This document shows positions 500 to 14,681 of a stretch of 42,769 bases of DNA, piece by piece (within the stretch, counting starts at the first letter, position 1; the number at the start of each line of letters is the position of its first letter). The stretch is from a virus, in IMG/VR virus record IMGVR_UViG_3300008111_000037, positions 1 through 42,769 of that record; one strand, 5' to 3'. The position numbers were made by a program, and so were the translations under genes. The notes beneath the pieces were generated by a model that was not told the origin of the DNA, searched no databases, and was given only the letters and a program-made list of their open reading frames with translations.

Positions 500-502
500 G
501 TA
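495..502 (+). promoter_or_regulatory. Late promoter-like box before small terminase
   Basis: GATAAGTA lies four bases before ATG 507. It is a one-base variant of the ATAAATA boxes at 982, 2355 and 3953. It overlaps the end of gp4. Confidence 0.35.
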
Positions 503-506
503 CATT

Positions 507-986
507 ATGACTAAAAAATTAGAAGAATTATTTAATCTAGAATCTGATGCCGAAAAGCCTACCGAAGTTGTAGAGCCAGTCAAAGAGCATCAGGAAGTTC
601 GAAGCCTTGATGAAAGTTACAAAGCAGTGGCTGAAATAACCAAAGGTTTACCACAGATCAAAGAATTGGACGAATTAGACGATAAAGAACTAGATAGTCT
701 AGCAAAAAAAGCAGAAGACGCCTATGACGATCTTATGGATTTAGGCATGAATGTAGAAGTTAGGTATAGCGGACGTATTTTTGAAGTAGCAGGAACCATG
801 TTAAAAAATGCTATAGATGCTAAATCCGCTAAAATAGAGAAAAAATTAAAAGCAGTCGATCTTCAATTGAAAAAGTATAAGATAGACAAAGATAACAATG
901 AAGACCCTAATGATGTTATCAACGGACAGGGTTATATCATAACAGATCGCAACGAACTGCTGAAAAAACTAGGCAGTAAGGAATAA
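507..986 (+). CDS. 16: Small terminase subunit gp16-like
   Basis: The 159-residue acidic, mostly helical protein is predicted to recognise phage DNA and start packaging together with the large terminase encoded 1.4 kb downstream. The helical core includes DDLMDLGMNVEVRYSGRIFE and a lysine-rich coiled stretch around KSAKIEKKLKAVDLQLKK, as in gp16 of marine T4-like phages. The frame is open back to 465, but that start lies inside gp4; ATG 507 gives MTKKLEELF and has a late-promoter-like box four bases upstream. The call rests on position between gp4 and gp17, size and helical layout. Confidence 0.7.
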   Translation: MTKKLEELFNLESDAEKPTEVVEPVKEHQEVRSLDESYKAVAEITKGLPQIKELDELDDKELDSLAKKAEDAYDDLMDLGMNVEVRYSGRIFEVAGTMLKNAIDAKSAKIEKKLKAVDLQLKKYKIDKDNNEDPNDVINGQGYIITDRNELLKKLGSKE

Positions 987-989
987 ATA
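982..989 (+). promoter_or_regulatory. T4-type late promoter box, start codon at predicted +1
   Basis: AATAAATA is one base from the T4 late consensus TATAAATA. Exactly five bases separate it from ATG 995. The T4 late box occupies about -13 to -6, so the A of the ATG is the predicted first transcribed base. Confidence 0.6.
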
Positions 990-994
990 CACAT

Positions 995-1561
995 ATGAAA
1001 AGTTTTAGACAATATCTTGCCGAAAGCCAAAAAGTTTACAGTTTCAAGGTAAAAGTTGCGGGCGATCTTCCTGGAAAATTTCAAGAAGGCCTAAAAAATC
1101 GCCTTGATCGTTGTAAAGTGTTAACACTAGAAAAAATCACTACGACTCCTATACAAAAGTTACCTTTAGATTTTCCAGGAATGGAAAACAAAGAAGTGCA
1201 TGTATTTGAAGTGATTTGTGAATATCCCATTACCAGTCCAGAAATCATTCAGGACATCAAAGGCATGGGATTAGACGAAGCATGTTTCAGAGTAAGAGGC
1301 AGCAGCGAGCCTTCAGAAGAAGAACAAGTTATTGCCACTAGCGAAACAAAAAGCGAAGCACTATTAAGTGAAACAGATCTTGATAAGAACACAGGCAAGA
1401 TCAAACACAAAGATTATTTTGGTGATGATTTTAATAAATCATTTCTGAAAGATTTAGAAAAATCAAGCAAGGCCCGTAAAAAAGATCAGGGACAGACTGA
1501 ATACAAACTGCCCAAGGCCAAGATCGACAAAGCAGGTACTAAGAGCCCAATGGGGAGTTAA
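995..1561 (+). CDS. Unknown virion or internal-head candidate with capsid-targeting-like N-terminus
   Basis: The 188-residue product has no function I recognise. It begins MKSFRQYLAES, close to the T4 capsid targeting sequence (MKTYQEFIAE) that directs internal proteins into the prohead and is cleaved during maturation. An alpha/beta segment follows (residues about 15-105), then a charged Lys/Glu-rich tail rich in KAR and KDQ motifs. It sits between the two terminase genes and is probably transcribed late from the box at 982. Internal head protein or packaging accessory is inferred from the N-terminus and location only. Confidence 0.5.
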   Translation: MKSFRQYLAESQKVYSFKVKVAGDLPGKFQEGLKNRLDRCKVLTLEKITTTPIQKLPLDFPGMENKEVHVFEVICEYPITSPEIIQDIKGMGLDEACFRVRGSSEPSEEEQVIATSETKSEALLSETDLDKNTGKIKHKDYFGDDFNKSFLKDLEKSSKARKKDQGQTEYKLPKAKIDKAGTKSPMGS

Positions 1562-1563
1562 TT

Positions 1564-2292
1564 ATGAATTTTCAAGAATTATTAGCAAAGATGCAGCAGT
1601 TAGATCGACCTGCATCTACAGTAGAACAAGTAACAGATGAAATGGGATGTGGAGACATGTCCCCATCAATGCCACCGGCCAATGAGCCTCCTGTGGCACC
1701 TCCTAGCATGAGCATTAATTTAAATGCTCAAGGTATGGACAACATTGAAGATCTAATGAAGTTAGTAACTAAGGTAAATCCAGATATGGACAAACCTAAT
1801 CTTCCTCCTTTACCTTCTATGGGCGACATGCCAAGCATTGCTTCAATTAAACCTGCTATGCCTCCTTTAAAGATGCTGCCAGATCTAGACAGTGAGCCAG
1901 AAGGTGATCATTCTGAGCCAGATGCTGATAACATGGGCGGTCCAAGCGACAATGATGCAGATAATAAAATTGATGTCATTCAGAAGTCTATGGGGGACAT
2001 TGACGGCGACGGCGACCATGATATGGACGACCATGATGCTGAGAAGAAAGATAAAAAAGACGAAAAAGAAGCATTTGGTAACTCACCAATTGGCGGTTCA
2101 GAGCCCGAGACAAAAGGTCTTGATGCTGCAATACCCGATGGTGACGATCTAAACAAGCCTAAGAAGAGTTTCAGTGGTAAGCCATATCGTGGCGACAACC
2201 CAATGGCTGCTAACGCATATGAAAGCACAGATTTACGTGCTCAAATCCGTGCAGAATTACAACGTAGATTAACAGAAGCAAAAAAATCTTGA
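1564..2292 (+). CDS. Acidic Pro/Met/Asp-rich low-complexity protein, unknown
   Basis: This 242-residue protein starts two bases after the previous stop (GGGAG just upstream). It has three visible parts: a short helix, a long disordered Pro/Met/Ser-rich region (residues about 35-110), and an Asp/Gly/Lys-rich part containing DIDGDGDHDMDDHD near residue 145. That stretch resembles a calcium-binding loop, with Asp at every second position. The C-terminus forms an amphipathic helix LRAQIRAELQRRLTEAKK. Linked to the terminase operon, it may be a structural, scaffold or internal protein. No family is recognised. Confidence 0.6.
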   Translation: MNFQELLAKMQQLDRPASTVEQVTDEMGCGDMSPSMPPANEPPVAPPSMSINLNAQGMDNIEDLMKLVTKVNPDMDKPNLPPLPSMGDMPSIASIKPAMPPLKMLPDLDSEPEGDHSEPDADNMGGPSDNDADNKIDVIQKSMGDIDGDGDHDMDDHDAEKKDKKDEKEAFGNSPIGGSEPETKGLDAAIPDGDDLNKPKKSFSGKPYRGDNPMAANAYESTDLRAQIRAELQRRLTEAKKS

Positions 2293-2325
2293 AATAAAAA
2301 GAAAATGCGTGGTTCACGCTAACTC

Positions 2326-2353
2326 AAATAGGCTCTTCGGGGCCTATTTTTTT
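2326..2353 (+). terminator. Intrinsic terminator with C(UUCG)G loop
   Basis: AAATAGGC (2326-2333) pairs with GCCTATTT (2342-2349). A T-G pair and a C-G pair close a TTCG loop, giving a ten-pair stem that runs into a T tract. It ends the gp16 unit just before the gp17 late promoter. Confidence 0.85.
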
Positions 2354-2354
2354 C

Positions 2355-2362
2355 AGTAAATA
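2355..2362 (+). promoter_or_regulatory. Late promoter box before large terminase
   Basis: AGTAAATA lies immediately after the terminator, and its last base is five bases before ATG 2368. This is the same spacing as at 982 and 3953. Confidence 0.5.
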
Positions 2363-2367
2363 ATTAT

Positions 2368-3954
2368 ATGGCAAAATCATTAGACGGTGTATTAATCAAG
2401 AAGGCTCATGCCCCACAGCGATATACACTAGAAGAAGTAAAACATCTCGAAGCATGTATGGATCCTATTACAGGGCCGTTATACTTCTGCAAGAATTTTT
2501 TAAAGATACAGCATCCTGTTCGAGGAGCAATTAAATTTGATCCTTATGAATATCAAGAAAGATTGATACAGGCCTATCACGAAAACAAGCAGTGTATCGC
2601 TATGTTACCACGTCAAATGGGTAAGACCACTTGCGCCACAGGTTATCTACTTTGGTACACTATGTTTGTACCAGAAGCACAAGTACTGATCGCTGCTCAC
2701 AAATATGAAGGTGCGCAGGACATTATGAATCGTTATAGATACGGTTATGAAAACTTGCCTGACTTTATTCGTGCTGGAGTTTATTCATATAATAGAAATA
2801 CAATTGAATATGATAACGGAAGTCGTATTCAAGCAACCACAACTACAGAAAATACAGGTCGTGGTAAATCTCTTTCTTTAATTTACTGTGACGAGTTTGC
2901 GTTTGTACAACCTCCAGAAAAAGCCAAAGAGTTCTGGACTGCACTATCACCGACATTGTCAACAGGCGGTAAATGTATTATTACATCAACTCCAAACTCG
3001 GACGAAGACCAGTTTGCTCTTATCTGGACTGAGGCTAATAACAGATTTGACGAACATGGCAACGAACAGAAATTAGGAATGAACGGGTTCCATAGTTATT
3101 TTGCACATTGGTCAGAACACCCAGATAGAGACGAAGAGTGGGCAAAAATAGAACGTGCAAAAATTGGCGAAGAACGTTTCCGCCGTGAGTTTGATTGTGA
3201 GTTTTTGATCTTTGATGAAACACTGATCAATGCAGTAAAACTAGCAGAACTCAAAGGTAGCGAACCTGTAATGACTATGGGTCAAACACGTTGGTATAAA
3301 GATATTGATCCAAGATGTACATATCTAGTGGCTCTAGATCCTAGTCTAGGAACTGGTGGAGACTATGCAGCCATACAGGTTTACGAAATGCCTTCAATGG
3401 AACAGGTAGCAGAATGGCGGCATAATCTAACCCCAGTACAATCACAGACTAAAAATCTTAGAGAAATATGTAATTACATCACAAGCAGAGGTAAAGAAAA
3501 AGGCGGCAACCCTACCATTTATTATTCAGTAGAAAATAACTCTGTGGGTGAAAGTGCTTTAATTTGTATCAGTAATATAGGAGAAGAAAACTTTCCGGGA
3601 TTATTTTTGTCAGAACCTATACGCAAAGGCCATGTACGCAGATTCCGAAAGGGTTTTAATACCACCCATAAATCTAAGATCAGTACTTGTAGCCAACTAA
3701 AACATATGTTAGAAACTGGAAAAATGCGTATACACAGCAAGCCTTTGATCAGCGAATTAAAAACCTTTGTGGCACACGGCATAGGTTTTGGAGCCAAAAC
3801 CGGCGAACACGATGACCTAGTTTCTAGCGTTCTATTAGTATTACGCATGGCTGCTATCTTAGCGGACTGGGATCCTAGAGTTTATGAAAAAATGACAGAT
3901 AAAATCACAGAAGATCAACTGCCTATGCCAATTTTTGTAAGTACAGGGTTTTGA
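2368..3954 (+). CDS. 17: Large terminase subunit gp17-like (packaging ATPase and nuclease)
   Basis: The 528-residue motor pumps DNA into the prohead and cuts concatemers. The N-terminal ATPase shows Walker A RQMGKTT (residues 82-88) and Walker B LIYCDE with Asp175 and Glu176; ITSTPN follows as the coupling motif. The C-terminal RNase H-like nuclease shows ALDPSLGTGGDYA with Asp324 and a distal HDDLVSS with Asp482 and Asp483, the expected metal ligands. It is shorter than T4 gp17 (610 residues), as in marine relatives. It stands alone after a terminator, with a late box placed so that the start codon is at the predicted +1. No clear Shine-Dalgarno sequence precedes the ATG. Confidence 0.97.
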   Translation: MAKSLDGVLIKKAHAPQRYTLEEVKHLEACMDPITGPLYFCKNFLKIQHPVRGAIKFDPYEYQERLIQAYHENKQCIAMLPRQMGKTTCATGYLLWYTMFVPEAQVLIAAHKYEGAQDIMNRYRYGYENLPDFIRAGVYSYNRNTIEYDNGSRIQATTTTENTGRGKSLSLIYCDEFAFVQPPEKAKEFWTALSPTLSTGGKCIITSTPNSDEDQFALIWTEANNRFDEHGNEQKLGMNGFHSYFAHWSEHPDRDEEWAKIERAKIGEERFRREFDCEFLIFDETLINAVKLAELKGSEPVMTMGQTRWYKDIDPRCTYLVALDPSLGTGGDYAAIQVYEMPSMEQVAEWRHNLTPVQSQTKNLREICNYITSRGKEKGGNPTIYYSVENNSVGESALICISNIGEENFPGLFLSEPIRKGHVRRFRKGFNTTHKSKISTCSQLKHMLETGKMRIHSKPLISELKTFVAHGIGFGAKTGEHDDLVSSVLLVLRMAAILADWDPRVYEKMTDKITEDQLPMPIFVSTGF

Positions 3955-3960
3955 TAAATA
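3953..3960 (+). promoter_or_regulatory. Late promoter box overlapping the gp17 stop
   Basis: GATAAATA shares bases with the TGA of gp17. Five bases (CACTT) separate it from ATG 3966. The sequence through the ATG nearly repeats that at 982-997. Confidence 0.55.
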
Positions 3961-3965
3961 CACTT

Positions 3966-5675
3966 ATGAATGCAACTAACAATATTGCCACCGATTTATT
4001 CTATAAAATACGCAGCCGTTTTCGCGGTTTAAAATTAGGCGACGAAACCGGTCAACTTACCATTAATCCAGAAGAAGCACGTTTTTTTGATTTTGATTAC
4101 ATGGAAGGTGAAACGCCAATTGGCCATGTTAGCATCAGTCTAGCCGAAGACAATTCTATGAAAGTGTATTTCAGCACTGGCATAACAGAAGGCATGGACA
4201 CACCGCAAAAAAATAATTGGTACGGATTTTTAAAAGAATTACGTACCTTTGCCAAACGTAGATTAATGGCTTTTGATACTAGAGACATCGCCAAAGATAA
4301 TTTAGACAAAAGAGATTACGAGTTCTTGAGTCAGCATAATAAACCTAAAGAACAACCAAATACTGTAATAAAGCCCGTTGGAGAATCAGTCATGAATGAA
4401 AGCACACTTTATGGTACTAAAACCATGAGTTATCAGAAATTAATGGATACACGCCTTATCATCAAACACAGTCAAGCAGTGATGGATGATACACAACCAG
4501 GTGCAAGAACAAGAAATATTTCTGCACTGTTTGTAGAAAATCAAGACGGTGAAAGATTCAAATATCCTTTCATTCATCTAGCAGGTGCTAGAGCCATGCA
4601 ACGTCATGTGGCCAACGGCGGACTACCATATGATGACCTTGGCAAAAGCATCATCCAAATGAGTGAAGAAATTGCACAACTAAAGAGTTTTGGAAATTAT
4701 GTTGTTCGCAACGATCTAATGAATTCAGATACCAATGGTATTGTAGAACGTAGTACACAGGCTCTAAACGATCTAAGAGAAACTATTCAGAAATTATCTA
4801 AGCAAACACATTACGAATCATACAAAGAAAATTTCCAAGCCCAAGAACATTTAGAAATACCACAAGACGTTGTAGAAGAATACAAAGAAAAATTCACAGT
4901 TAGAAATTTCAAAGAAGATATTAAATCAGTATTTCCTGTTATCTATCGTCTGATGCAGGAAGGAAGCACATTAGGCTACGCTGACATAGTCGCAATGACA
5001 CAAGAAAGCACAACCAACGACGAAGCCGAAATATTCGAGGATGACGAAGCCGAATCATTTAGCAAGTTTGAAAATTGGGTTATGACCTTAGGTGAAGAAT
5101 CTGCTATTACATCGTCTGATGAGGAAGAACAAAAAGCAGCCATGAAAGAATTACAAGAACTTGTAGGAGAACATTTTCCTGCAGGAGCAGATGGCAACAA
5201 TGCAATTCCAAGTTTAAAAGGCATCATTGATGATCCTCAATTATATCAGCAAATTAAACAACAGGCCAAAGAACAAGGCGAAGATAGTTGTGTGAGAGGG
5301 TTGGTTAAAGATTGGTTAGAATCCAATGCGCCTGAAGTTGTAGATCAATTAGATTTTGGGGACTTTACTGAAGAGCCAATGGCTGGAGAAGAGTCGCCAG
5401 AAGAAGAGCCGCAAATGGCAGACGTTGATCAAGAACACTCACAGAGATTAAATGTACAAGAATTGGCAGAATTTATAACTTCATTTTATGATCGAGAATC
5501 CGGAACTTTTCCAAAAGGTCCAGAAGGTGTAGCGATCATGGTAGGCAAGAAGTTCGGCGGACAGGCTGAAAGCGTGGCTCGTAAATTCGTAGAACGCATG
5601 GCTCCGCATCAGAGTACCGAACAAAATCCAGAACTGCAAGAATTGGCTCGTATCAAAGAACTTTCAGGCGTATAA
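3966..5675 (+). CDS. Large unknown protein downstream of terminase, probable structural protein
   Basis: The 569-residue product is not recognised. An in-frame TTG at 3951 overlaps gp17; ATG 3966 (MNATNNIATDLF) matches the spacing from the late box. The N-terminal part (to about 120) is mixed alpha/beta, and the middle (about 140-320) is rich in FVENQDGERFKYPFIHLAGA-type and helical segments. The C-terminal third is very acidic (Glu/Asp runs near 360-390 and 480-500) and ends in helices. Late expression next to packaging genes suggests a virion or assembly role. A terminator follows, so it ends the packaging unit. Confidence 0.7.
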   Translation: MNATNNIATDLFYKIRSRFRGLKLGDETGQLTINPEEARFFDFDYMEGETPIGHVSISLAEDNSMKVYFSTGITEGMDTPQKNNWYGFLKELRTFAKRRLMAFDTRDIAKDNLDKRDYEFLSQHNKPKEQPNTVIKPVGESVMNESTLYGTKTMSYQKLMDTRLIIKHSQAVMDDTQPGARTRNISALFVENQDGERFKYPFIHLAGARAMQRHVANGGLPYDDLGKSIIQMSEEIAQLKSFGNYVVRNDLMNSDTNGIVERSTQALNDLRETIQKLSKQTHYESYKENFQAQEHLEIPQDVVEEYKEKFTVRNFKEDIKSVFPVIYRLMQEGSTLGYADIVAMTQESTTNDEAEIFEDDEAESFSKFENWVMTLGEESAITSSDEEEQKAAMKELQELVGEHFPAGADGNNAIPSLKGIIDDPQLYQQIKQQAKEQGEDSCVRGLVKDWLESNAPEVVDQLDFGDFTEEPMAGEESPEEEPQMADVDQEHSQRLNVQELAEFITSFYDRESGTFPKGPEGVAIMVGKKFGGQAESVARKFVERMAPHQSTEQNPELQELARIKELSGV

Positions 5676-5692
5676 TTTATCAAACCATCCAT

Positions 5693-5720
5693 AAAGGGCA
5701 CTTCGGTGCCCTTTTTCTTT
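5693..5720 (+). terminator. Intrinsic terminator with C(UUCG)G loop
   Basis: AAAGGGCAC (5693-5701) pairs with GTGCCCTTT (5706-5714) around TTCG, followed by a T-rich tract. The design is the same as at 2326. Confidence 0.9.
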
Positions 5721-5761
5721 TAATATTGTCAACGTATTTTTATCTAAGGCGTTATATATAT

Positions 5762-5784
5762 ACGCACAGCAATTTTGCTGGCGT
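5762..5784 (+). promoter_or_regulatory. Leader hairpin before the secreted-protein gene
   Basis: ACGC, a bulged A, then CAGCAA pair with TTGCTG and GCGT across a TT turn, about ten pairs. It ends shortly before the Shine-Dalgarno AAAAAGGAG (5791-5799). It may protect the mRNA 5' end or regulate translation. A promoter must lie in the TA-rich stretch 5750-5762, but no well-spaced -35 was found. Confidence 0.5.
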
Positions 5785-5806
5785 TAATTCAAAAAGGAGA
5801 TTTCAA

Positions 5807-6001
5807 ATGAAATCGATCGTAACTTTAGTAGCATCATTGTTTGCAGTATCCGCTTTTGCACAAGCACCGGCAGCACCTGCTAAGAAAGAAGAAGCCAAAC
5901 CAGCCGCAGCCGCTCCAGCACCTGCTGCTAGTAAGCCTGCCGATAAAAAGGTCGAGCCTGTCAAAAGCGACGCCAAAAAAGCAGAGCCTGCTAAGAAGTA
6001 A
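5807..6001 (+). CDS. Small secreted Ala/Pro/Lys-rich protein
   Basis: A 64-residue protein starts with a classical signal peptide: MKS, a hydrophobic core IVTLVASLFAVS, then AFA-Q as the cleavage site after residue 18. The mature part is only Ala, Pro, Lys, Glu, Asp, Ser and Val in KKEEAKPAAAAP-like repeats, with no fold visible. A strong Shine-Dalgarno and leader hairpin suggest high expression. Similar small exported proteins are common in betaproteobacteria, and such signal peptides are rare in T4-like phages, so transfer from a host is plausible. Function is unknown; periplasmic or envelope location is inferred. Confidence 0.75.
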   Translation: MKSIVTLVASLFAVSAFAQAPAAPAKKEEAKPAAAAPAPAASKPADKKVEPVKSDAKKAEPAKK

Positions 6002-6002
6002 T

Positions 6003-6194
6003 CCAACTCGATCAGTTGTTCTAACATTTGATGATTGTGAAATTGAGTACGTATTTGAAGATGCGATACACAGAGGTTACAGCAGACCAAAGTTAGAAGA
6101 ACTGGATGAAGATGATCTTCCTGAACATACCAGATGGAGATTATTTTTAGCCCGTCAGTTGGCACTTTTGAAGTACAAAGAAATCCACGGTTAA
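6003..6194 (+). CDS. Conserved-looking ORF tail without a canonical start, +1 frame after the secreted protein
   Basis: From about codon 6003 this frame reads a protein-like sequence: VVLTFDDCEIEYVFEDAIHR, then an acidic linker, then RWRLFLARQLALLKYKEIHG. The ending recalls small unknown proteins of marine T4-like phages. There is no ATG, GTG or TTG between 5990 and 6060 in this frame. Upstream it stays open through the secreted-protein gene as a meaningless Leu/Gln/Pro-rich sequence with an ATG at 5841. Options are a +1 frameshift at AAG TAA (5996-6001), a rare ATT start (6042), a long overlap or a sequencing error. The stop lies in the terminator loop. Confidence 0.45.
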   Translation, partial: PTRSVVLTFDDCEIEYVFEDAIHRGYSRPKLEELDEDDLPEHTRWRLFLARQLALLKYKEIHG

Positions 6195-6208
6195 CGTGGA
6201 TTTTTTTT
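6181..6208 (+). terminator. Intrinsic terminator
   Basis: AAATCCACG (6181-6189) pairs with CGTGGATTT (6195-6203) across a five-base loop, followed by a T run to 6208. It separates the secreted-protein unit from gp32. Confidence 0.9.
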
Positions 6209-6241
6209 GGTAAGATAAATTAAAAAAATAGCAGATAATAG

Positions 6242-6270
6242 TTGACCTTGCTAAATAAAAAGCGCATAAT
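6242..6270 (+). promoter_or_regulatory. Sigma-70 promoter for gp32
   Basis: TTGACC (6242-6247), a 17-base spacer, then CATAAT (6265-6270). The start is expected near 6277, giving a leader of about 53 bases. Confidence 0.75.
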
Positions 6271-6290
6271 ACTGTTATGCGAAAGGCATA
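6263..6290 (+). promoter_or_regulatory. Two alternative hairpins at the gp32 promoter and leader
   Basis: CGCATAA (6263-6269) can pair with TTATGCG (6275-6281), while TATGC (6276-6280) can instead pair with GCATA (6286-6290) around GAAAG. Only the second lies wholly within the transcript expected from 6277, at its 5' tip. T4 gp32 represses its own translation by binding a folded leader, so this could be the equivalent site; a pseudoknot partner was not found. Confidence 0.4.
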
Positions 6291-6329
6291 TAACAAGTCA
6301 TTTACATTAAGGCATAAGGAGGCTATAAA

Positions 6330-7304
6330 ATGGCAACACTAGCAGAAATTCGTGCTAAACTTCAAGAAGCACAAAACAAGAGCACAGGCTCTACATCAAG
6401 CGGCGGCGACAACGCAATTTACCCCCACTGGAATATGCAAGAAGGCAAAGAAGCCGTAGTACGTTTCTTACCTGACGGCAACACCAACAATACTTTCTTC
6501 TGGGTAGAACGTGCAATGATTAAATTGCCGTTTGCAGGTATCAAAGGCGAAACAGATTCGCGTCCAGTTCAAGTACAAGTTCCTTGTGTTGAAATGTACA
6601 ACGATGGTACAGCATGTCCAATCCTATCAGAAGTACGTGGTTGGTTCAAAGACAAGAATCTAGAAGACATGGGTCGTAAGTATTGGAAAAAGCGTTCATA
6701 CATTTTCCAAGGTTTCGTTGTTGAAGATCCTCTTAAAGAAGATTCACAACCAGAGAACCCAATCCGCAGATTTATCATTGGTCCTCAGATCTATCAGATC
6801 ATCCGTGCGGCATTGATGGATAGTGAAATTGAAGAATTGCCAACTGATGTACTACGTGGCCTCGATTTCCGTATTGCTAAAACTAGCAAAGGTGGATTTG
6901 CTGACTACTCTACATCAAAGTGGAGCCGTAGAGAGCGTTCCTTATCAGATGTTGAAAAGGCTGCTATCGAATCACATGGTCTTTTTAATCTATCAGACTT
7001 TTTGCCAAAGAAACCTACAGACATTGAGTTGAAGGTTATGAAGGAGATGTTTGAAGCATCTGTTGATGGCGAAGCCTATGACATGGATCGTTGGGGACAA
7101 TACTTCAAACCAGCAGGTATGGGAGCAGCCACAGGTGATCCTAACAAACAAGTAGCGAGAGCAGCAGTAGCAGATGATCAGGTTGATGACGAACCAGCAC
7201 CTGTATCTAAGCCTGTTGTAGCCGAGACAGCACCAGCAAGTACTGAAAGTTCATCTAGAGCACAGGATATCCTTGCTAAAATTCGTGCCCGTCAGGGACA
7301 ATAA
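6330..7304 (+). CDS. 32: Single-stranded DNA-binding protein gp32-like
   Basis: The 324-residue protein coats single-stranded DNA during replication and recombination. The OB-fold core is recognisable (AVVRFLPDGN, PCVEMYNDGTACPILSE, SYIFQGFVVEDP, RRFIIGPQIYQ). The N-terminus ATLAEIRAKLQ is the cooperativity region and the C-terminus DILAKIRARQGQ echoes it. In T4 a zinc ion is held by one His and three Cys; here only two Cys remain (PCV and ACP), and the last Cys of a CPxC pair is Leu, so the zinc site looks lost. AAGGAGG seven bases upstream fixes the start. It leads the UvsX/UvsY recombination run. Confidence 0.93.
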   Translation: MATLAEIRAKLQEAQNKSTGSTSSGGDNAIYPHWNMQEGKEAVVRFLPDGNTNNTFFWVERAMIKLPFAGIKGETDSRPVQVQVPCVEMYNDGTACPILSEVRGWFKDKNLEDMGRKYWKKRSYIFQGFVVEDPLKEDSQPENPIRRFIIGPQIYQIIRAALMDSEIEELPTDVLRGLDFRIAKTSKGGFADYSTSKWSRRERSLSDVEKAAIESHGLFNLSDFLPKKPTDIELKVMKEMFEASVDGEAYDMDRWGQYFKPAGMGAATGDPNKQVARAAVADDQVDDEPAPVSKPVVAETAPASTESSSRAQDILAKIRARQGQ

Positions 7305-7313
7305 TTAACACGG

Positions 7314-7353
7314 CTCGGGCCTCTAAGACATAGTTCTTACGCCCGAGTTCTTC
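7314..7353 (+). terminator. Long hairpin after gp32, probable attenuator or weak terminator
   Basis: CTCGGGC (7314-7320) pairs with GCCCGAG (7341-7347), with an inner stem TAAGA/TCTTA, then TTCTTCT. The T tract is interrupted, so read-through into the UvsX genes is likely. Confidence 0.55.
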
Positions 7354-7371
7354 TCACTATAGGATTCTAAA

Positions 7372-7563: not shown

Positions 7564-7564
7564 T

Positions 7565-8644
7565 ATGGCAAAAGCATTTGATATTTCTAAATTTAGAAAG
7601 TCAATTACAAAGTCCATTGAAGGACTTAGTATTGGCTTTAACGATCCAACAGATTGGGTCAGCACAGGCAATTACGCATTAAATTATCTAATCAGCGGTG
7701 ACTTTCATAAAGGTGTTCCGCTAGGTAAGGTAACTGTGTTTGCGGGTGAGTCGGGCGCAGGTAAGTCTTACATCTGTTCTGGCAATCTTATTAAGGCAGC
7801 ACAGGCACAAGGCATTTATCCTATTCTAGTTGATACAGAAAATGCGCTCGATGAAGATTGGTTAAAAGCACTTGGTGTTGATACCAGTGAAGATAAGTTG
7901 TTAAAACTTAACATGGCTATGATTGACGATGTAGCAAAGACTATCACAGAATTTGTTGCAGAATACAAAGCAATGCCAGAAGAAACTCGTCCTAAAGTTT
8001 TATTTGTGTTAGATTCTTTGGGTATGTTGTTAACACCGACAGACGTTAATCAGTTTGAGGCAGGCGATTTGAAAGGTGACATGGGTCGTAAACCTAAAGC
8101 ACTTACAGCACTTGTTCGTAATTGTGTTAACATGTTTGGTTCATTGAACATTGGCCTAGTAGCAACTAATCACACATACGCTTCACAAGATATGTTTGAT
8201 CCAGATGACAAGATCAGCGGAGGTCAAGGTTTTATCTATGCATCGAGCATTGTTGTTGCTATGAAAAAACTTAAACTCAAAGAGGATGACGACGGTAACA
8301 AGATTACAGAAGTTCGTGGCATTCGTGCTGCCTGTAAGATTATGAAAACTCGCTATGCGAAACCGTTTGAAAGTGTACAGGTTAAGATTCCTTACGAAAC
8401 AGGTATGAATCCATATAGTGGACTGGTCGACCTGGCTGAAGCAAAAGGGATGCTCAAGAAAGAAGGAAATAGTCTTGTATACGTGACTGCCGATGGCGAA
8501 ATCATCAAACAGTTCCGCAAGGCCTGGGAACGTAACGAGAACGGCGGTCTTGATGCTATCATGTCTGACATTTCAAAACACGGTGAAAAAACTGAATCTG
8601 GGATAACTAAAGATGTTATACCTGATTTGGAGAGCGCAGAATGA
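7565..8644 (+). CDS. uvsX: UvsX RecA-like recombinase
   Basis: The 359-residue strand-exchange protein forms filaments on gp32-covered DNA and drives recombination-dependent replication. Walker A is GESGAGKS (residues 61-68); VLFVLDSLGML is Walker B, followed by GDMGRKPKALTALVR and ISGGQGFIYASS as DNA-binding loop regions. VDTENALDEDW carries the acidic residue expected to activate water. UvsY, its loader, is encoded just downstream, with one small gene between them overlapping the uvsX end by four bases. Confidence 0.95.
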   Translation: MAKAFDISKFRKSITKSIEGLSIGFNDPTDWVSTGNYALNYLISGDFHKGVPLGKVTVFAGESGAGKSYICSGNLIKAAQAQGIYPILVDTENALDEDWLKALGVDTSEDKLLKLNMAMIDDVAKTITEFVAEYKAMPEETRPKVLFVLDSLGMLLTPTDVNQFEAGDLKGDMGRKPKALTALVRNCVNMFGSLNIGLVATNHTYASQDMFDPDDKISGGQGFIYASSIVVAMKKLKLKEDDDGNKITEVRGIRAACKIMKTRYAKPFESVQVKIPYETGMNPYSGLVDLAEAKGMLKKEGNSLVYVTADGEIIKQFRKAWERNENGGLDAIMSDISKHGEKTESGITKDVIPDLESAE

Positions 8645-8883
8645 AAGAAGATTTGATCGCAGATATTTGGACACTGGTTGTCGAACATATCCCCGAAAAG
8701 CATCGTAAAGATGTGGCTGCAGATTTTGTTAATACATTGTTGGATTATGGCATCAAGGAATCGACCTTGCAGAGCCTGCAAGGCATCGACGGTTATCTTG
8801 ACGGTGCCATTGACTATGCCATTGATGATGAAGAGATTGAAGCCGAAGAAGATGAATACGATTACAATGAAGATGAGGATTAA
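8641..8883 (+). CDS. Small acidic conserved protein between UvsX and UvsY
   Basis: An 80-residue protein overlaps the end of uvsX by four bases (ATGA). The N-terminal two thirds are helical (DLIADIWTLVVEHIPEKHR, then AADFVNTLLDYGIKES), and the last 20 residues are almost all Asp, Glu and Tyr. Similar proteins sit at this position in cyanophages, with no known function. The acidic tail could mimic DNA or contact UvsX, UvsY or gp32; that is inference. Confidence 0.75.
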   Translation: MKEDLIADIWTLVVEHIPEKHRKDVAADFVNTLLDYGIKESTLQSLQGIDGYLDGAIDYAIDDEEIEAEEDEYDYNEDED

Positions 8884-9339
8884 ATGAATTGGTATGATCG
8901 GGTTTCTAAAGACATTTCACAAATCCCCGATGCTGTGGCATTTTATGAGGCTGAGTTACTAGCAGCCAAACAAGACGCCCGTATATCGGGAAACATTGAA
9001 AGGGCGTCGGCATCGATGCCCGGTATTGTTGAAAACCGATTTAACCAGTTACAAGAAATTGAAGGTATTTTAGAATATCTCAATATTGAACTTCGTAGAC
9101 TTCGTAGTCAGCATTTCCGTAAGTATCTCGAAAACTATCAACGTAGCCTATCCTCTAGAGACTGTGAAAAGTTTGTAGAAGGCGAGGCCGACGTTGTAGA
9201 CTTTGAAAAAATTATCAACGACTTTGCTCTGTTGAGAAACAAATGGCTTGGTATTATTAAAGCCTTAGATATTAAACAATGGCAGTTATCAAATATCGTT
9301 AAATTAAGAACTGCCGGATTAGAAGACGCCACTTTATGA
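8884..9339 (+). CDS. uvsY: UvsY recombination mediator
   Basis: The 151-residue helical protein loads UvsX on gp32-coated DNA and forms oligomers in T4. The start MNWYDRVSKDI and the central helices with LRRLRSQHFRKYLENYQR match the family, and length is close to T4 UvsY (137). GAGGAT just before the ATG serves as ribosome site. It ends the recombination operon, and its last four bases overlap a sugar dehydrogenase gene, so the sugar island is inserted directly behind it. Confidence 0.87.
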   Translation: MNWYDRVSKDISQIPDAVAFYEAELLAAKQDARISGNIERASASMPGIVENRFNQLQEIEGILEYLNIELRRLRSQHFRKYLENYQRSLSSRDCEKFVEGEADVVDFEKIINDFALLRNKWLGIIKALDIKQWQLSNIVKLRTAGLEDATL

Positions 9340-10112
9340 AAATAGGAATATTAGGTTTAGGTTATGTAGGATCAGCAGTAGCATATTCTCATAGAAATCA
9401 ACAGATAGTTGTAAGAGATCCTAAATTAGGAGACAAGTCAGCATCCATTGAAGAAATTAAAAATTGTGATGCTATCTATGTATGTGTTCCTACTCCCATG
9501 TTAGAAGATGGGCATTGTGACGACTCTTATGTTAAATCTGTTTTAAAAGAATTACAAGATTATAAAAATGTAATCATATGCAAAAGTACAGTGCCTCCGG
9601 GCGTTTATTTGCGATTACAAGATCAATATCCTAATCTTGTTCATGCACCTGAATTTCTTACAGCGGCCAATGCTATTGCTGATTACGAAATGTCAACATG
9701 GGTATTAATTGGTGGTAATACTGATTATTGTCTTAAAGCCAAAGAAGTAATACAATCTAGCACTATTAAGGCACAACAATACCATTTCACTAATATCTCT
9801 ACTGCCAGTTTGTTCAAATATCTAGCCAATAGTTTTTTAGCAACCAAAGTAACTTTTATGAATGCGTTTTTTCAGTTAGCCAAAGAAGTGGATGTTGACT
9901 GGAATGAAATTAAAAATATCGCCAAAAATGATTCTCGCCTGGGAACTAGTCACTGGGACGTTCCTGGACCAGATGGTCAATTTGGGTATGGCGGTGCTTG
10001 TTTTCCTAAAGATGTTGCAGCCATCCTCGAACACGGGCTCGATATAGGAATTGAATTAGAATTACTAGGCCGTGTTGAAGATATCAACAAAAAGAATCGA
10101 AAATACGATTAA
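9336..10112 (+). CDS. UDP-glucose/GDP-mannose dehydrogenase family, short form
   Basis: This enzyme class oxidises the C6 alcohol of a nucleotide sugar to the acid with two NAD, for example UDP-glucose to UDP-glucuronate. The N-terminus ILGLGYVGSAVA is the Rossmann NAD site, CVPTPM and KSTVPPG follow, and the catalytic cysteine is Cys222 in YGGACFPKD. At 258 residues it lacks the C-terminal UDP-binding domain of the usual 390-450-residue enzymes, so it may be partly active or need a partner. It starts inside the end of uvsY and opens the sugar island. Its end overlaps the convergent epimerase fusion gene. Confidence 0.88.
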   Translation: MKIGILGLGYVGSAVAYSHRNQQIVVRDPKLGDKSASIEEIKNCDAIYVCVPTPMLEDGHCDDSYVKSVLKELQDYKNVIICKSTVPPGVYLRLQDQYPNLVHAPEFLTAANAIADYEMSTWVLIGGNTDYCLKAKEVIQSSTIKAQQYHFTNISTASLFKYLANSFLATKVTFMNAFFQLAKEVDVDWNEIKNIAKNDSRLGTSHWDVPGPDGQFGYGGACFPKDVAAILEHGLDIGIELELLGRVEDINKKNRKYD

Positions 10113-11734
10113 AGATTTTCTTTTACGTATTCTTCGATAGTTTTTGTCACAGTCCAACTAAAAGTTTCAGACAGTTTTGTATTATCCGCAAGTGTGATAT
10201 ATGCTTCGCCCATCCTTGGCTCAATCATAGAAATGTCATCGGAAATCATAGCAGCCAATTCTAAAACAGAGTGATTAGTTCCTGATCCAACATTAAAAAC
10301 TTCCCCATACTTATCGTGAGAATCGACTTGCATTGCTAATATGTTTGCGGCAACAACATCATTGACATGTGTAAAATCTCTACGTTGTGTGCCATCGGGT
10401 ACAATAGTCAACGGTAATCCAGATTTTTTCTGTCTTAAAAATAATCCTACTACTGGTGCATACACACCTCTCACTGGTTCTCTAGGACCGTATACATTGA
10501 AATAACGGAAGATAATAGTTTTTAGTCCAAACAATTTTGTGTACATACTACACAATTTCTCGCCTGCTACTTTAGATACAGAGTAAGGATTGAGACAATC
10601 GTCGGGCATAGTTTCTGACAGTGGCGGTTTATTAGCAAGCCCGTAAGCAGACGAAGTCGAACTATACATAACTTTTTTAACACCTGCCTCTCTGCTAGCC
10701 TGAAGAACTGTAGCAGTACCTAGTGCATTAGTTCTCACTGCGCCCAATGGGTTTAAAATAGTAGGTTGTATTCTTGATTCAGCAGCACAGTGAAATACAT
10801 AATCTATATTTTCATATAGATGTTTTGTACTTTCATAATCTGCAATATCTAATTTATGATAAGATGCTTTTTCATTAAAATAAAATTGTTCGTGTACAGC
10901 AGAACTTTCATTATCGATTACTGTAACTTGATGACCTAGTCCAATCAATGTATCTACAATATGCGATCCTATAAATCCTGCACCGCCGGTTACTAAAGAT
11001 TTCATAATATTATTATTTTCCTTACTTAAATTGTCTTTTTGTTTTTTACCCCAGAAATGATAAAAATATTTTTCAAGATTAGAATCTTCAAATCCGCAAT
11101 ATTTCTTTCCGCTGGTATGATTACCATTCCAAAGATTCAAATATTTAAAATTATTTTTATTTAAGATTCTGTCTAATACATAAGTATCATACCTTCTTAC
11201 AAATTGTAAAATTTCTTCACTGTTCCAAAAACTTTCATATTGTTCTAAAAAATTATCTAATTCTGGATGTTTTAAATTAAAGGCGACAAAACCAGTGTCA
11301 AGTCCTAGGTCTTTGAGATAGGGATTTTCCCATTTATTTAGAGTTTCGTCTAATTTTATAATTTTTTTGTTGTTTACACTTAACAACTCATCTTCGCCTG
11401 GTATAAGTTCTTCTATCTTAGGAATTCTTTTTACCTGAACGTCTGCGTCTAGCCAAATACAATAATCGTAATGTTTTTTACTTTTTTTAATAGCAGATAC
11501 AATAGATCGACTTTTTCGCCAAAACTTAACTTCTATACCGGAAAGAAAAGAAGGACAAGTAGTAAGATCTAGACGAGTGTTTATAATCCGTTGATCATCT
11601 ATCAAAGATGAAATTTCTTTCTCAACAAAGAAATTACAATCTCCTGGTAATAGATCCCATGTATGCTTTACTTTGCTAAAAAAATGTTTGTGATACTCTT
11701 CATTAAATCCTGTATTCCAAGAAACTTTTATCAT
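10109..11734 (-). CDS. Fusion: GT-A glycosyltransferase plus NAD-dependent nucleotide-sugar epimerase
   Basis: Residues 1-243 form a GT-A-like module with WLDADVQV as the DxD metal site and LGLDTGFVAFN, paralogous to modules at 16150, 18547 and 19247. Residues 244-541 form a complete extended short-chain dehydrogenase like GalE: VTGGAGFIGSH for NAD, STSSAYG, and Tyr-x3-Lys in PYSVSKVAGEK. The second domain begins with its own Met (ATG at 11005) after TAAGGA about 13 bases upstream, so a free epimerase may also be made. Making a sugar donor and using it in one chain would couple synthesis and transfer. The epimerase substrate is unknown. Confidence 0.88.
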   Translation of the reverse strand: MIKVSWNTGFNEEYHKHFFSKVKHTWDLLPGDCNFFVEKEISSLIDDQRIINTRLDLTTCPSFLSGIEVKFWRKSRSIVSAIKKSKKHYDYCIWLDADVQVKRIPKIEELIPGEDELLSVNNKKIIKLDETLNKWENPYLKDLGLDTGFVAFNLKHPELDNFLEQYESFWNSEEILQFVRRYDTYVLDRILNKNNFKYLNLWNGNHTSGKKYCGFEDSNLEKYFYHFWGKKQKDNLSKENNNIMKSLVTGGAGFIGSHIVDTLIGLGHQVTVIDNESSAVHEQFYFNEKASYHKLDIADYESTKHLYENIDYVFHCAAESRIQPTILNPLGAVRTNALGTATVLQASREAGVKKVMYSSTSSAYGLANKPPLSETMPDDCLNPYSVSKVAGEKLCSMYTKLFGLKTIIFRYFNVYGPREPVRGVYAPVVGLFLRQKKSGLPLTIVPDGTQRRDFTHVNDVVAANILAMQVDSHDKYGEVFNVGSGTNHSVLELAAMISDDISMIEPRMGEAYITLADNTKLSETFSWTVTKTIEEYVKENL

Positions 11735-11738
11735 TTAA

Positions 11739-12539
11739 TTAATCCTTAGGAACATTATGCCAGTAGGCAGGATATTTTTTTAAAGTTTCGAGAATACTTT
11801 TTGGATAATTAACAACGCTAAGAACCTCACTGTCGGTTTTATGATTAATTGCTGCTTTGGTATCTTTTCTTTTAAAGGCTTCTAAGATTTGTTCGGGATC
11901 TCTATAATCAGTCTCAATACAACTAACAACTTTGTTTTTTATAATTTCATCTGACCCCATCCAAGACCAATGCCAACCGACCGACTCATCAAGTCCTATA
12001 CAATGATCTCGATTTTTTCTTTTGGCTATATCTTTGCTACCTTTATATAAATCGTGTGGAGTTTCAAACATAAATCGTTTAGCCACGACACTACCCTTCC
12101 ATCCTCTAAATAACTTTTGATCAAATTTGTACATGTACATTTCTAAACCACAAGAAACGGGTTTATTATTTTGCTCTAATGCATTGAGGATTTTTTCAAA
12201 TTTTTCAGGATTTAAAATTTCATCTAAATCACCATGTATAACAATATCATTACTATTACACTGATCTAAACGATCCTTAAACCCTTTACGCATGCCTGTC
12301 TCGCAGTAACTTCTGTGAGGATGGTCCTCTTCAAGATTAATACTTAGAACTTCTAATTTTTCACCGAACCGTTTCTTATATCTATCAATATTATTTTTTA
12401 AGAAAAATTCTTTAGGACGACTGCTTAGTGTTCGATCAGCCTCTACAACTATCCATTTATCAACATAAGTATCACTTATTTCTAAGTGAATATCTAACAT
12501 GTCAAATTCATTATTAAAAAGAAATGTGTCTATTATCAT
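11739..12539 (-). CDS. Glycosyltransferase family 17-like
   Basis: The 266-residue protein resembles GT17, the family of beta-1,4-mannosyl-glycoprotein N-acetylglucosaminyltransferase. Visible marks are an N-terminal DTFLFNNEFDMLDIHL, VVEADRT, the acidic site IHGDLDEI (around residues 101-108), and the conserved GWHWSWMG near residue 188. It lies four bases downstream of the methyltransferase gene at 12543 and upstream of the epimerase fusion, so one minus-strand operon runs from 13877 to 10109. It probably adds a sugar to a surface glycan; acceptor and donor are unknown. Confidence 0.82.
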   Translation of the reverse strand: MIIDTFLFNNEFDMLDIHLEISDTYVDKWIVVEADRTLSSRPKEFFLKNNIDRYKKRFGEKLEVLSINLEEDHPHRSYCETGMRKGFKDRLDQCNSNDIVIHGDLDEILNPEKFEKILNALEQNNKPVSCGLEMYMYKFDQKLFRGWKGSVVAKRFMFETPHDLYKGSKDIAKRKNRDHCIGLDESVGWHWSWMGSDEIIKNKVVSCIETDYRDPEQILEAFKRKDTKAAINHKTDSEVLSVVNYPKSILETLKKYPAYWHNVPKD

Positions 12540-12542
12540 ATT

Positions 12543-13184
12543 TTAAAACTTATAAATTATTTGATATTTGTCATAAATTGGAAATACATTTTTTGATTCC
12601 AAATATTCAACAATCATTCTACCCTTTCCAGATCGACGTCCATCTAATAGATAAGCGTTATCATCTATTGCAACTATCGCTCCTTCTTTAAGAGAATTTT
12701 CGATAGACTTAAATTCTTTGAGATGATGATTAGCACTATCAAAATCGTCGTGCCATTTAACATCCCATGAATCTAAATAAAACAAATCGATAGCATCTAA
12801 ATTATTTAAAGAAGAAAGCCAAGTAACGCTGTCTGAACAAAAAGATTTGTAGTACTTTTCATCGATAAAACTATTTGCCGTATCAACTGCAGATTGATTT
12901 ATATCTACTGACCTAACAAAACCACCATGCAATTTTACCATCTCAGCAAATAAAAAACCACTATTACCGTCTTTCCAATTATTTGGATTTCTAACTGTCC
13001 CTGTTTCAATTATTTGAAAATCATTATTTTTCTTTTGTAATAGAAGTTCAAACATTAATTTAAAACCCTGCCCTCGATCATACAAACCTGGTTTACAATT
13101 TCTTTTTTCGCATGCTCCTGGTTTTGATACTACTTGATCAAGCAACGGTTGATAATTTTGTTTATAAGTTTCTAGCCAATTCAT
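12543..13184 (-). CDS. Class I SAM-dependent methyltransferase-like protein
   Basis: The 213-residue protein has a Rossmann-like layout: IIETGTVRNPNNW as the SAM loop, FVRSVDINQSAVDTA with the acidic ribose-binding Asp, IDLFYLDSWDV as motif IV, and AIVAIDDNAYLL. This resembles the Methyltransferase_24 type often found next to glycosyltransferases. The GT17 gene follows after three bases. The likely substrate is a sugar or small molecule of the glycan pathway; this is inferred from neighbours. Confidence 0.7.
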   Translation of the reverse strand: MNWLETYKQNYQPLLDQVVSKPGACEKRNCKPGLYDRGQGFKLMFELLLQKKNNDFQIIETGTVRNPNNWKDGNSGFLFAEMVKLHGGFVRSVDINQSAVDTANSFIDEKYYKSFCSDSVTWLSSLNNLDAIDLFYLDSWDVKWHDDFDSANHHLKEFKSIENSLKEGAIVAIDDNAYLLDGRRSGKGRMIVEYLESKNVFPIYDKYQIIYKF

Positions 13185-13187
13185 TTT

Positions 13188-13877
13188 TTACCCTAATAAA
13201 ATTTGGTGGTCGAATTCTACAGATTGATTTGATTCATCAGGAACTGGAACATTCCAGTGTCGTTTGCACATAATAAATTCAAATTTTTCTAAATCATCAA
13301 AGTCTTTACAACGATCCGGAAGATAAAAAAATGCATTAACACCTCTTGTGTCCACTGTTAAAAAGTTATATCCAGCGGAAGATAAAAGAGTTTTAAATGC
13401 AGAAAGACTAGCACCACAGTTTTTGATATGATAATTGTCTAAATTAGGTTTAACTGAGCAAATCAAATCTGGACCATAAAAGGAAAGATATTCTGTGCAA
13501 ATAATTGACGGAAAAAATTTATTAGAAAGTAATTCTTTTAATATCCAAAAGTCGATACTATCAATGTCTAAACTAAAGAAATCAGGTGACAAAGTAGACC
13601 AACTATTGATTAAATCTTTTATATTTGATAAATTGATTTGTTTAACATTATGTGTATAATTAGGATGAAACCATGCCTGATCTAACATATCGTGCCCAAT
13701 ACCATTATACCCATGATTCTCTATCAAATTTCTTAACATATTTTCGGTTCCGTTACCCGAACCTATTTCAATTGCTGTAAAATTTTTTTTGATTAATCGA
13801 GAAACCATTGTGTGAATAATACCATCTTCTAAATTCTGAGAGAAGTTTTTATATTCGTAAGATAATCTGTTTTTCAT
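13188..13877 (-). CDS. SAM-methyltransferase-like protein of the sugar island
   Basis: ATG at 13877 gives a 229-residue protein beginning MKNRLSYEYKNFSQNLEDG; the frame stays open further upstream, but that part runs into the opposite gene and its promoter. IEIGSGNGTENML is the SAM loop, FFSLDIDSIDFW motif IV, and CGASLSAFKTLL with GVNAFFYL at the C-terminal end is typical of a methyltransferase family seen in marine bacteria and phages. It opens the minus-strand operon. Its late box and first codons mirror those of the divergent gene at 13917. Confidence 0.72.
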   Translation of the reverse strand: MKNRLSYEYKNFSQNLEDGIIHTMVSRLIKKNFTAIEIGSGNGTENMLRNLIENHGYNGIGHDMLDQAWFHPNYTHNVKQINLSNIKDLINSWSTLSPDFFSLDIDSIDFWILKELLSNKFFPSIICTEYLSFYGPDLICSVKPNLDNYHIKNCGASLSAFKTLLSSAGYNFLTVDTRGVNAFFYLPDRCKDFDDLEKFEFIMCKRHWNVPVPDESNQSVEFDHQILLG

Positions 13878-13882
13878 AAGAA

Positions 13883-13890
13883 TATTTACC
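13883..13890 (-). promoter_or_regulatory. Late promoter box for the minus-strand sugar operon
   Basis: Read on the minus strand this is GGTAAATA, followed by five bases (TTCTT) and ATG 13877. The A of the ATG is the predicted +1. Confidence 0.55.
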
Positions 13891-13903
13891 AATAAACGTA
13901 GCA

Positions 13904-13911
13904 CATAAATA
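13904..13911 (+). promoter_or_regulatory. Late promoter box for the cytidylyltransferase-cupin gene
   Basis: CATAAATA, then five bases (TTCAT) and ATG 13917. Confidence 0.6.
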
Positions 13912-13916
13912 TTCAT

Positions 13917-14681
13917 ATGAAAAACATTGTAATTGTTACTGGCGGCTTTGACCCCATACATTCCGGGCATATTGCCTACATACAAGAAGCACGAAAATTA
14001 GGAGATTTCCTAGTTATAGGAGCCAATTCAGACGAGTGGCTTAGGCGTAAAAAGAAAAAAGAATTTATGCCTTGGATTGAACGTGCAGCCGTGCTATCTG
14101 CCTTATCTAATGTTGATCGTGTAATCAATTTTGATGACAGCGACAACAGCGCCAAGGATGCAATTAGAAAAGTAAGGTCTATATATCCTAATGATCATAT
14201 TATTTTTGCTAACGGTGGAGATCGAACTAATGCCAATATTCCTGAAATGGATATCAAAGATGAAAATCTGGAGTTTGTTTTTGGGGTAGGCGGCGAACAT
14301 AAAATGAATTCAAGTTCTTGGATATTGCAAGAATGGAAAGCGCCTAAGACTGAGCGTCAATGGGGCTATTGGCGGGTTTTACACGAGCAAGGCCAAGAGG
14401 TAAAGTTAAAAGAACTAACCGTTGCTCCCGGCAAAATGCTGTCAATGCAGAAGCATAAAGAAAGAGCAGAACATTGGTTTGTGGCTGACGGTACTGCTAC
14501 AGTTTATACTATCAATTCAAGTACTGATGCAGAATTGCACGGAGTATATAAAAAATTCCAACATATTCATATCAATCGTCAAGAGTGGCATCAATTGTGC
14601 AACGAAGGGGACACTCCCCTAAAGGTTATTGAAATTCAATACGGTGAAAATTGTATAGAAGAGGATATAGAAAGATTATGA
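13917..14681 (+). CDS. Fusion: cytidylyltransferase plus cupin (sugar isomerase-type)
   Basis: The N-terminal half (residues 1-130) is a nucleotidyltransferase of the glycerol-3-phosphate cytidylyltransferase or RfaE class: TGGFDPIHSGHIAYIQEA contains the nucleotide-binding HxGH. The C-terminal part (about 140-254) is a double-stranded beta-helix cupin like the last domain of mannose-6-phosphate isomerase/GDP-mannose pyrophosphorylase: YWRVL, HKERAEHWFVADGTA and NRQEWHQLCN supply metal-binding His and Glu. The fusion probably activates or isomerises a sugar or polyol phosphate for the glycan island. It leads a six-gene plus-strand operon to 19263. Confidence 0.87.
   Translation: MKNIVIVTGGFDPIHSGHIAYIQEARKLGDFLVIGANSDEWLRRKKKKEFMPWIERAAVLSALSNVDRVINFDDSDNSAKDAIRKVRSIYPNDHIIFANGGDRTNANIPEMDIKDENLEFVFGVGGEHKMNSSSWILQEWKAPKTERQWGYWRVLHEQGQEVKLKELTVAPGKMLSMQKHKERAEHWFVADGTATVYTINSSTDAELHGVYKKFQHIHINRQEWHQLCNEGDTPLKVIEIQYGENCIEEDIERL

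Follow-up and report, generated by a model that had tools for sequence, protein, structure and literature searches.

The window analyzed here is a 42,769-nt stretch of viral DNA (positions 1-42,769 of the IMG/VR virus record IMGVR_UViG_3300008111_000037) and carries T4-type genes, namely the large terminase subunit (TerL), gp32 (coordinates in Table 1) and UvsX (7565-8644). Its two strands together hold 29 copies of the hexamer TAAATA, the core of the T4 late promoter. Some of these boxes lie so close to an ATG that transcription might begin on the start codon itself, and the leaderless late mRNAs that would result are the subject of this work. In T4, the textbook model of late transcription, most late mRNAs have leaders with a Shine-Dalgarno (SD) sequence. 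Distances are given below as d, the number of bases between the end of the box and the start codon.

The preliminary description of the window had listed five TAAATA-N5-ATG sites, preceding genes 995, 2368 (TerL), 3966 and 13917 on the plus strand and gene 13877 on the minus strand. All five were found, each of them opening a long frame, and the AAGTA variant at four bases was confirmed as TAAGTA-N4-ATG upstream of genes 507 and 39939 (minus strand). Two of the contrast genes with strong SD sequences were borne out as well: gp32 has an ordinary leader without any box in the 45 bases upstream, and gene 40606 has its SD behind a box at d = 23. A similar arrangement, with the SD behind a box at d = 21, precedes gene 39332 (minus strand), and gene 1564 keeps an SD while the flanking genes 995 and 2368 have close boxes. 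The ATG of gene 13877 is not the first possible start, as its frame stays open as far as a TTG at 13985 further upstream, and this site was left uncounted by the open reading frame (ORF) filter used below.

Table 1. Promoter boxes, genes and contrast features of the window, and IF1 genes of the long relatives.
Feature	Position	Strand	Remarks
TAAGTA box	497..502	+	gene 507-986 resembles terminase small subunit families; d = 4 before its ATG 507
TAAATA box	984..989	+	d = 5 before ATG 995
Gene with predicted leaderless mRNA	995..1561	+	phrog_14802, virion structural protein; frame 188 aa
GGGGAG Shine-Dalgarno	1552..1557	+	gene 1564-2292, downstream cistron without its own box
Terminator-like hairpin and T run	2326..2353	+	stem 2326-2333 / 2342-2349 by eye; ends just short of the TerL box
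TAAATA box	2357..2362	+	d = 5 before ATG 2368
TerL, predicted leaderless	2368..3954	+	phrog_36964, E 5.3e-117; frame 528 aa
TAAATA box	3955..3960	+	d = 5 before ATG 3966
Virion structural protein, predicted leaderless	3966..5675	+	phrog_13484; frame 569 aa
AAGGAGG Shine-Dalgarno of gp32	6316..6322	+	gp32 gene 6330-7304; contrast gene
TAAATA box	13883..13888	-	d = 5 before ATG 13877; gene 13188-13877, frame 229 aa
TAAATA box	13906..13911	+	d = 5 before ATG 13917; gene 13917-14681, frame 254 aa
TAAGTA box	39944..39949	-	d = 4 before ATG 39939
TAAATA box	40630..40635	-	d = 23 before ATG 40606, GGAG between; leadered promoter for contrast
IF1 gene	G001:C1:66617-66811		long relative
IF1 gene	G002:C1:264590-264775		long relative
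IF1 gene	G003:C1:2998-3192		long relative

Relatives of the window were collected from viral_contigs, where 206 stretches with a TerL relative were found; the 80 that were kept had 85-100% identity (L001-080; contigs of up to 364 kb). Two extra locus sets were obtained via the TerL of PA5oct (L227-306) and via that of Phosso (L307-385). The four long relatives G1 (353 kb), G2 (364 kb), G3 (270 kb) and G8 (116 kb), contigs that may be incomplete, overlap with the L001-080 set. The closest cultured TerL, that of PA5oct and its kin, showed 52.7% identity, and the 34 TerL matches in genome_contigs lay nearly all within variously labelled metagenome bins.

According to the preliminary description, the idea was to be dropped if relatives showed no surplus of d = 5; such a surplus was present in all three locus sets. 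Among the 972 TAAATA boxes of the 80 relatives, 343 had an ATG at d = 5, the next commonest spacing between 0 and 30 accounting for 40. When only ORFs of 60 codons with a stop within 25 codons upstream were accepted, the counts for d = 4-8 were 22, 296, 12, 6 and 0 in L001-080 (followed by 2, 0, 0, 0, 1, 1 and 0 for d = 9-15), 20, 91, 21, 42 and 9 in L227-306, and 4, 167, 16, 4 and 8 in L307-385. The three sets were merged, with each distinct 12-residue N-terminus taken once per spacing, into 704 non-redundant sites, which showed 35, 196, 31, 39 and 15 boxes at d = 4-8 and 2, 0, 2, 6, 8, 8 and 4 at d = 9-15. The start codon at d = 5 was almost exclusively ATG (196 ATG, 4 GTG, 1 TTG). The peak was also specific for the sequence of the TATAAATA-like core, as only two of the 19 hexamers compared produced it: TAAATA rose 44-fold and TAAGTA 12-fold over their own background, and the other 17 single-base variants at most 2-fold. 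The 12-fold peak at d = 5 identifies TAAGTA as a real second form of the box.

The arrangement was conserved at the orthologues of the window genes within the 80 loci. The TerL box stood at d = 5 in 67, d = 4 in nine and d = 6 in two of the 80 orthologues and was missing in two; that of gene 995 stood at d = 5 in 63/65 and at d = 7 in the remaining two. For gene 3966, d was 5 in 62, 8 in 13 and 4 in four of 79 orthologues, with an ATG at the aligned position in 66/79. For gene 13917, it was 5 in 14 and 2 in eight of 25, three having no box and 17 an ATG at the aligned position, and all three orthologues of gene 13188-13877 (minus strand) had d = 5. The other start types were equally persistent. 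None of the 63 orthologues of gene 507 had TAAATA within 45 bases, and all nine distinct upstreams inspected had TAAGTA-N4-ATG; gene 1564 lacked TAAATA within 45 bases in 61/64 orthologues and had GGGAG in 9/9 distinct upstreams inspected; gp32 had no box in 67/67 orthologues and an SD in 9/9 upstreams inspected.

Boxes preceding ORFs of at least 80 codons were divided into close (d = 4-8), gap (d = 9-15) and distant (d = 16-45) ones by a mechanical call that required a box, an ATG, an open frame and, no more than 25 codons upstream, a stop. The close/gap/distant counts were 37/2/42 in G1, 19/2/40 in G2, 14/1/28 in G3 and 8/0/12 in G8, which gives close boxes a share of 0.47, 0.32, 0.33 and 0.40, respectively, of close and distant ones together. 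The corresponding counts in records of cultured phages were 0/2/24 in T4, 0/0/23 in Syn9, 2/3/43 in PA5oct, 0/0/57 in Phosso and 3/2/63 in Atu_ph07 (the first 400 kb of the last two being covered), the three close sites of Atu_ph07 all having d = 7. An SD was present in 19/250 close (d = 4-6) versus 143/257 distant (d = 16-39) genes. Within G1-G3 it preceded only one of 63 close-box cistrons (TAAATA or TAAGTA) versus 144 of 320 box-less abutting ones. The coexistence of two initiation modes proposed in the preliminary description was supported in the relatives: close boxes mostly come without an SD, distant ones often with it, and the zone between them is nearly empty. Boxes in the empty zone would presumably leave leaders of about 4-10 nt, which are too short to accommodate an SD yet already too long for leaderless initiation. 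A true start further downstream with its own SD was rejected, an in-frame ATG or GTG with an SD within 25 codons being found in only 4/250 close-box genes.

A split of the two classes by function was not established in the PHROGs scan of G1, which covered 20/37 close-box and 17/42 distant-box proteins (a few of them cut at block edges) and placed virion genes in both. The gp18 gene had a box together with an SD in each of the four contigs checked, and gp23 had an SD without TAAATA among the 60 upstream bases in G1, G2 and G3. A d = 5 box also precedes a short ORF on the minus strand beside the tail sheath gene of G1 (L099:2552-2884, GGTG-TAAATA), and similar sites occur in other loci.

The T4 late box is reported to span -13 to -6 (PMC1524935). 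The preliminary description had relied on this geometry to set the A of the ATG at +1 for a five-base spacer, and the reported span agrees with it; the same geometry predicts +1 within one base of this A at d = 4 and d = 6. At d = 5, T or C preceded the ATG at 84/84 sites in L001-080 and at 38/38 in G1-G3 and G8, whereas a pyrimidine did so at 53% of the 339 starts with a distant box. The ATG at d = 5 thus offers its A as the natural purine for initiation. The SD-leadered promoters offered a separate view of the start site, as their pyrimidine-purine step peaked at offset 5 in T4 (0.39, n = 23), Syn9 (0.50, n = 10), PA5oct (0.58, n = 24), L227-306 (0.51, n = 76) and L307-385 (0.59, n = 58), and offset 5 was the joint strongest step in Atu_ph07 (0.47, n = 36). 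The earliest SD lay at offset 6 in 12 of the 73 leadered promoters of G1-G3 and G8 and before offset 5 in two.

A candidate for the factor that reads the boxes is encoded in the long relatives: a gp55-like late sigma factor was found in G1, G2 and G3 (phmmer E 4e-6 to 5e-7; in G1 also phrog_12791, E 7.9e-79), and the gp55 homologue search gave no match in the 43-kb window fragment or in G8. The G1 protein (L096:3576-4457) has about 290 aa, and its match to the late sigma family phrog_234 is limited to residues 168-269, the N-terminal part lying outside it.

These observations together point to gp55-type late promoters that probably yield leaderless mRNAs beginning with AUG beside SD-leadered ones, a reading we hold with good confidence on comparative sequence evidence. 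The preference for d = 5 among the relatives, the scarcity of SD and the two box classes all support the leaderless mRNAs predicted in the preliminary description. The boxes would act as T4-type late promoters read by the host RNA polymerase with the phage gp55-like sigma factor. A box at d = 5 would put +1 on the A of the ATG, so that the mRNA would open with AUG and have no leader, and ribosomes would recognize this 5'-terminal AUG, as they do on leaderless mRNAs elsewhere. Other late genes of the same contigs have their box at least 16 bases away, often with an SD in the leader, and downstream cistrons can keep an internal SD. We infer the exact +1, the promoter activity, the initiation at a 5'-terminal AUG and the late timing from position and homology.

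Several observations weigh against leaderless late transcription and bear, in part, on rival explanations of the close boxes. The Pfam families PF16805 and PF02916 (for the coactivator gp33 and the clamp gp45) matched T4 and did not match G1-G3, the window, PA5oct or Phosso, for which divergence or replacement may be responsible. The conservation upstream of TerL (T run conserved in 95-100%, positions -5 to -2 variable, T at -1 in 95%) was counted in 22 of 34 distinct upstreams preselected for a d = 5 box, which lowers its weight. The raw numbers of d = 4-6 matches, compared with those expected from an order-1 Markov model, were 46/22.1 in G1, 28/20.8 in G2, 24/21.7 in G3 and 18/7.8 in G8. With G2 and G3 near the expectation, the signal resides in the position of the box relative to ORF starts (31, 17, 13 and 8 sites at d = 4-6 in G1, G2, G3 and G8, respectively) and not in the number of matches. 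These counts might be taken to mean that AT-rich sequence and densely packed genes produce the sites by chance, and the window alone shows only a moderate excess, its five TAAATA-N5-ATG matches comparing with a shuffle mean of 1.30 and being reached in one of 100 shuffles. Such an origin has practically no likelihood given the spacing and sequence specificity over the 704 non-redundant sites, the conserved spacing at orthologues and the lack of a peak in the AT-richer PA5oct, T4 and Atu_ph07. As an explanation of the box position, chance or base composition was rejected with shuffles, Markov sequences, single-base variants and the reverse-complement box.

The genomic context of the close sites bears on translational coupling, in which the TAA of the box would serve as the upstream stop and ribosomes would reinitiate across a short gap, with no SD, on a longer polycistronic mRNA. 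Among the 246 non-redundant close sites (d = 4-6), 46 use the TAA of the box as the stop of the upstream ORF and 93 abut another stop; 58 lie behind a terminator-like hairpin and 26 are divergent (labels overlap), and 34 have no context label. The window contains both kinds of arrangement. Genes 995 and 3966 abut the preceding gene, in accordance with coupling, but TerL lies 75 bp behind its predecessor with the terminator in between, and genes 13877 and 13917 are divergent, with boxes facing away from each other and 39 bp between the two ATGs. The TerL start, with hairpin, T run, box, five bases and ATG in this order, is the clearest context case, and locus L001, identical with the window at this hairpin, was scored as a terminator. 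Coupling also leaves the choice of hexamer unexplained: among the nine other hexamers starting with TAA, only TAAGTA peaks and the remaining eight stay at or below 2-fold. The box-less abutting cistrons often carry the SD that close-box genes mostly lack. Because of the terminator and divergent sites, coupling was rejected as the general cause; it may operate at single abutting genes, where the TAA of the box or an adjacent codon is the upstream stop, and we regard it as a highly improbable account overall.

The remaining points concern the exact start of transcription. No pyrimidine-purine step at offset 5 was found in the SD-leadered promoters of Phosso (0.21, n = 42). In L001-080 the leadered promoters peaked at offset 4 (0.60, n = 25), those of G1, G2, G3 and G8 taken together (n = 73) gave no clear step (0.29-0.40 at offsets 2-7, the top at 6), and G precedes the ATG at 10/23 d = 4 sites in G1-G3 and G8. 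As the leadered promoters of the window's own clade do not confirm offset 5, +1 could differ there by about one base, and this missing signal weighs on the confidence in leaderless initiation. The late promoters might thus start a few bases further upstream and give very short SD-less leaders of 1-5 nt. The spacing-7 class agrees with such leaders: A stands at offset 4 in 90% of its 39 non-redundant boxes (L001-L080, L227-L385), which suggests mRNAs with a fixed 3-nt leader at these sites. Several d = 7 sites are, by eye, orthologues of genes 3966 and 995. The invariable pyrimidine before the ATG at d = 5 (in two overlapping sets) and the T4 box geometry (PMC1524935) favor the A of the ATG instead, and short leaders appear to be an unlikely explanation.

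Phage-encoded translation factors were sought in seven records. Homologues of IF1 were found in G1, G2, G3 and Phosso and of IF3 in Phosso only, and no record had an IF2 or S1 domain; a phage-borne IF3, IF2 or S1 domain was therefore rejected as the direct enabler of leaderless translation in G1-G3. Any link between IF1 and leaderless translation is speculative because Phosso has IF1 yet no close-box ORF. Permuted tmRNA genes were predicted in G1 (L087:4882-5318) and G2 (L118:18488-18862), together with 32 and 31 tRNAs, respectively. One G2 tRNA with the anticodon CTA (L120:19529-19603; tRNA-Pyl according to ARAGORN) is possibly an amber-reading tRNA.

The range of the close boxes was followed on a TerL tree of 254 loci and records grouped in 78 clusters. 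Of the 63 rows that form one clade (support 99/92), 49 had two or more close sites (d = 4-6), five had one and nine had none; since many loci are short, single zeros mean little. Outside the clade, two of 15 rows had at least two close sites. Close (d = 4-6) versus distant sites numbered 664 versus 549 inside the clade and 10 versus 208 outside. PA5oct is nested inside the clade with two sites, and one PA5oct match precedes a gene annotated as a structural protein with mass-spectrometry support; Phosso, Atu_ph07, T4 and Syn9 fall outside, and the five-base peak was not seen in these four. The TerL start itself was of the close-box type in 43, of the SD type in five and of another type in 30 of the 78 cluster representatives (five of the last having TAAGTA at d = 5), in a survey that took any in-frame ATG near the start and so favors finding a close box. 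No cultured record among the five had a close-box TerL start, with the script resolving this start in all of them except T4 and Atu_ph07.

The nearest known counterpart is the gp55-dependent late promoter of T4 (TATAAATA, -13 to -6), which shares the TAAATA core, the predicted distance to +1, the late virion genes and the gp55-family sigma factor. T4 differs in that none of its boxes precedes a fresh ORF of 80 codons or more at d = 4-8 (a single d = 5 site emerges when 60 codons suffice), and 15 of its 29 boxes counted at 16-45 bases lie 26-29 from the ATG. Several T4-like phages are reported to conserve the T at -13 poorly (PMC1524935). The T4-like late motif of cyanophages S-PM2 and Syn9, NATAAATA, is reported to belong to the same box family (PMC2984593), but in Syn9 all 23 ORFs with a counted box belong to the distant class. 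Pseudomonas phage PA5oct (Arenbergviridae), among the nearest cultured relatives by TerL, differs from the window's relatives by its two close-box versus 43 distant ORFs and by a TerL with an SD-like sequence and no close box.

Outside the T4-type promoters, most middle and late transcripts of Thermus phage phiYS40 are reported to be leaderless (PMC3594737), in another phage and host and with a reported rise of IF2 and fall of IF3. The evidence presented here is comparative, the box is of the T4 type, and close-box and SD genes are mixed. The jumbo phages phiKZ and AR9 likewise have short late motifs, that of phiKZ being given as TATG with G as +1 (PMC5312081); however, their late promoters, as described, are not of the T4 type and depend on a phage-encoded multisubunit RNA polymerase, with AR9 5'UTRs of 26-491 nt. 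Few SD sequences are reported for huge phages that may encode S1 proteins (PMC7162821); G1-G3 have no S1 match and make use of SD.

The preliminary description had considered leaderless initiation on this scale as not described before. For T4-like phages this stood, as no description was found in titles and abstract openings of the open-licence literature, which is weak evidence of novelty; in a wider sense it did not, as the leaderless middle and late mRNAs reported for phiYS40 (PMC3594737) precede it. The finding would thus be a new combination of two known parts, the T4-type late promoter and the leaderless late mRNA.

A wider hypothesis may be raised, rather doubtful at present, in which this deep and mostly uncultured jumbo-phage clade related to T4 runs two late translation modes under one sigma factor, with the distance between box and ATG alone deciding between them, and phage translation factors (IF1 in G1-G3) favor the leaderless set late, when SD-dependent initiation is contested.

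If leaderless initiation is confirmed, a large T4-related lineage has moved its late promoter up to the start codon at between a third and a half of the genes with a box nearby, and the leaderless late strategy of the Thermus phage recurs in a second phage group. The lineage would also offer a natural experiment with the same sigma family and orthologous genes, TerL having a close box in the window's clade and an SD in PA5oct. Start-site prediction would gain a box rule that is absent from SD-based gene finders.

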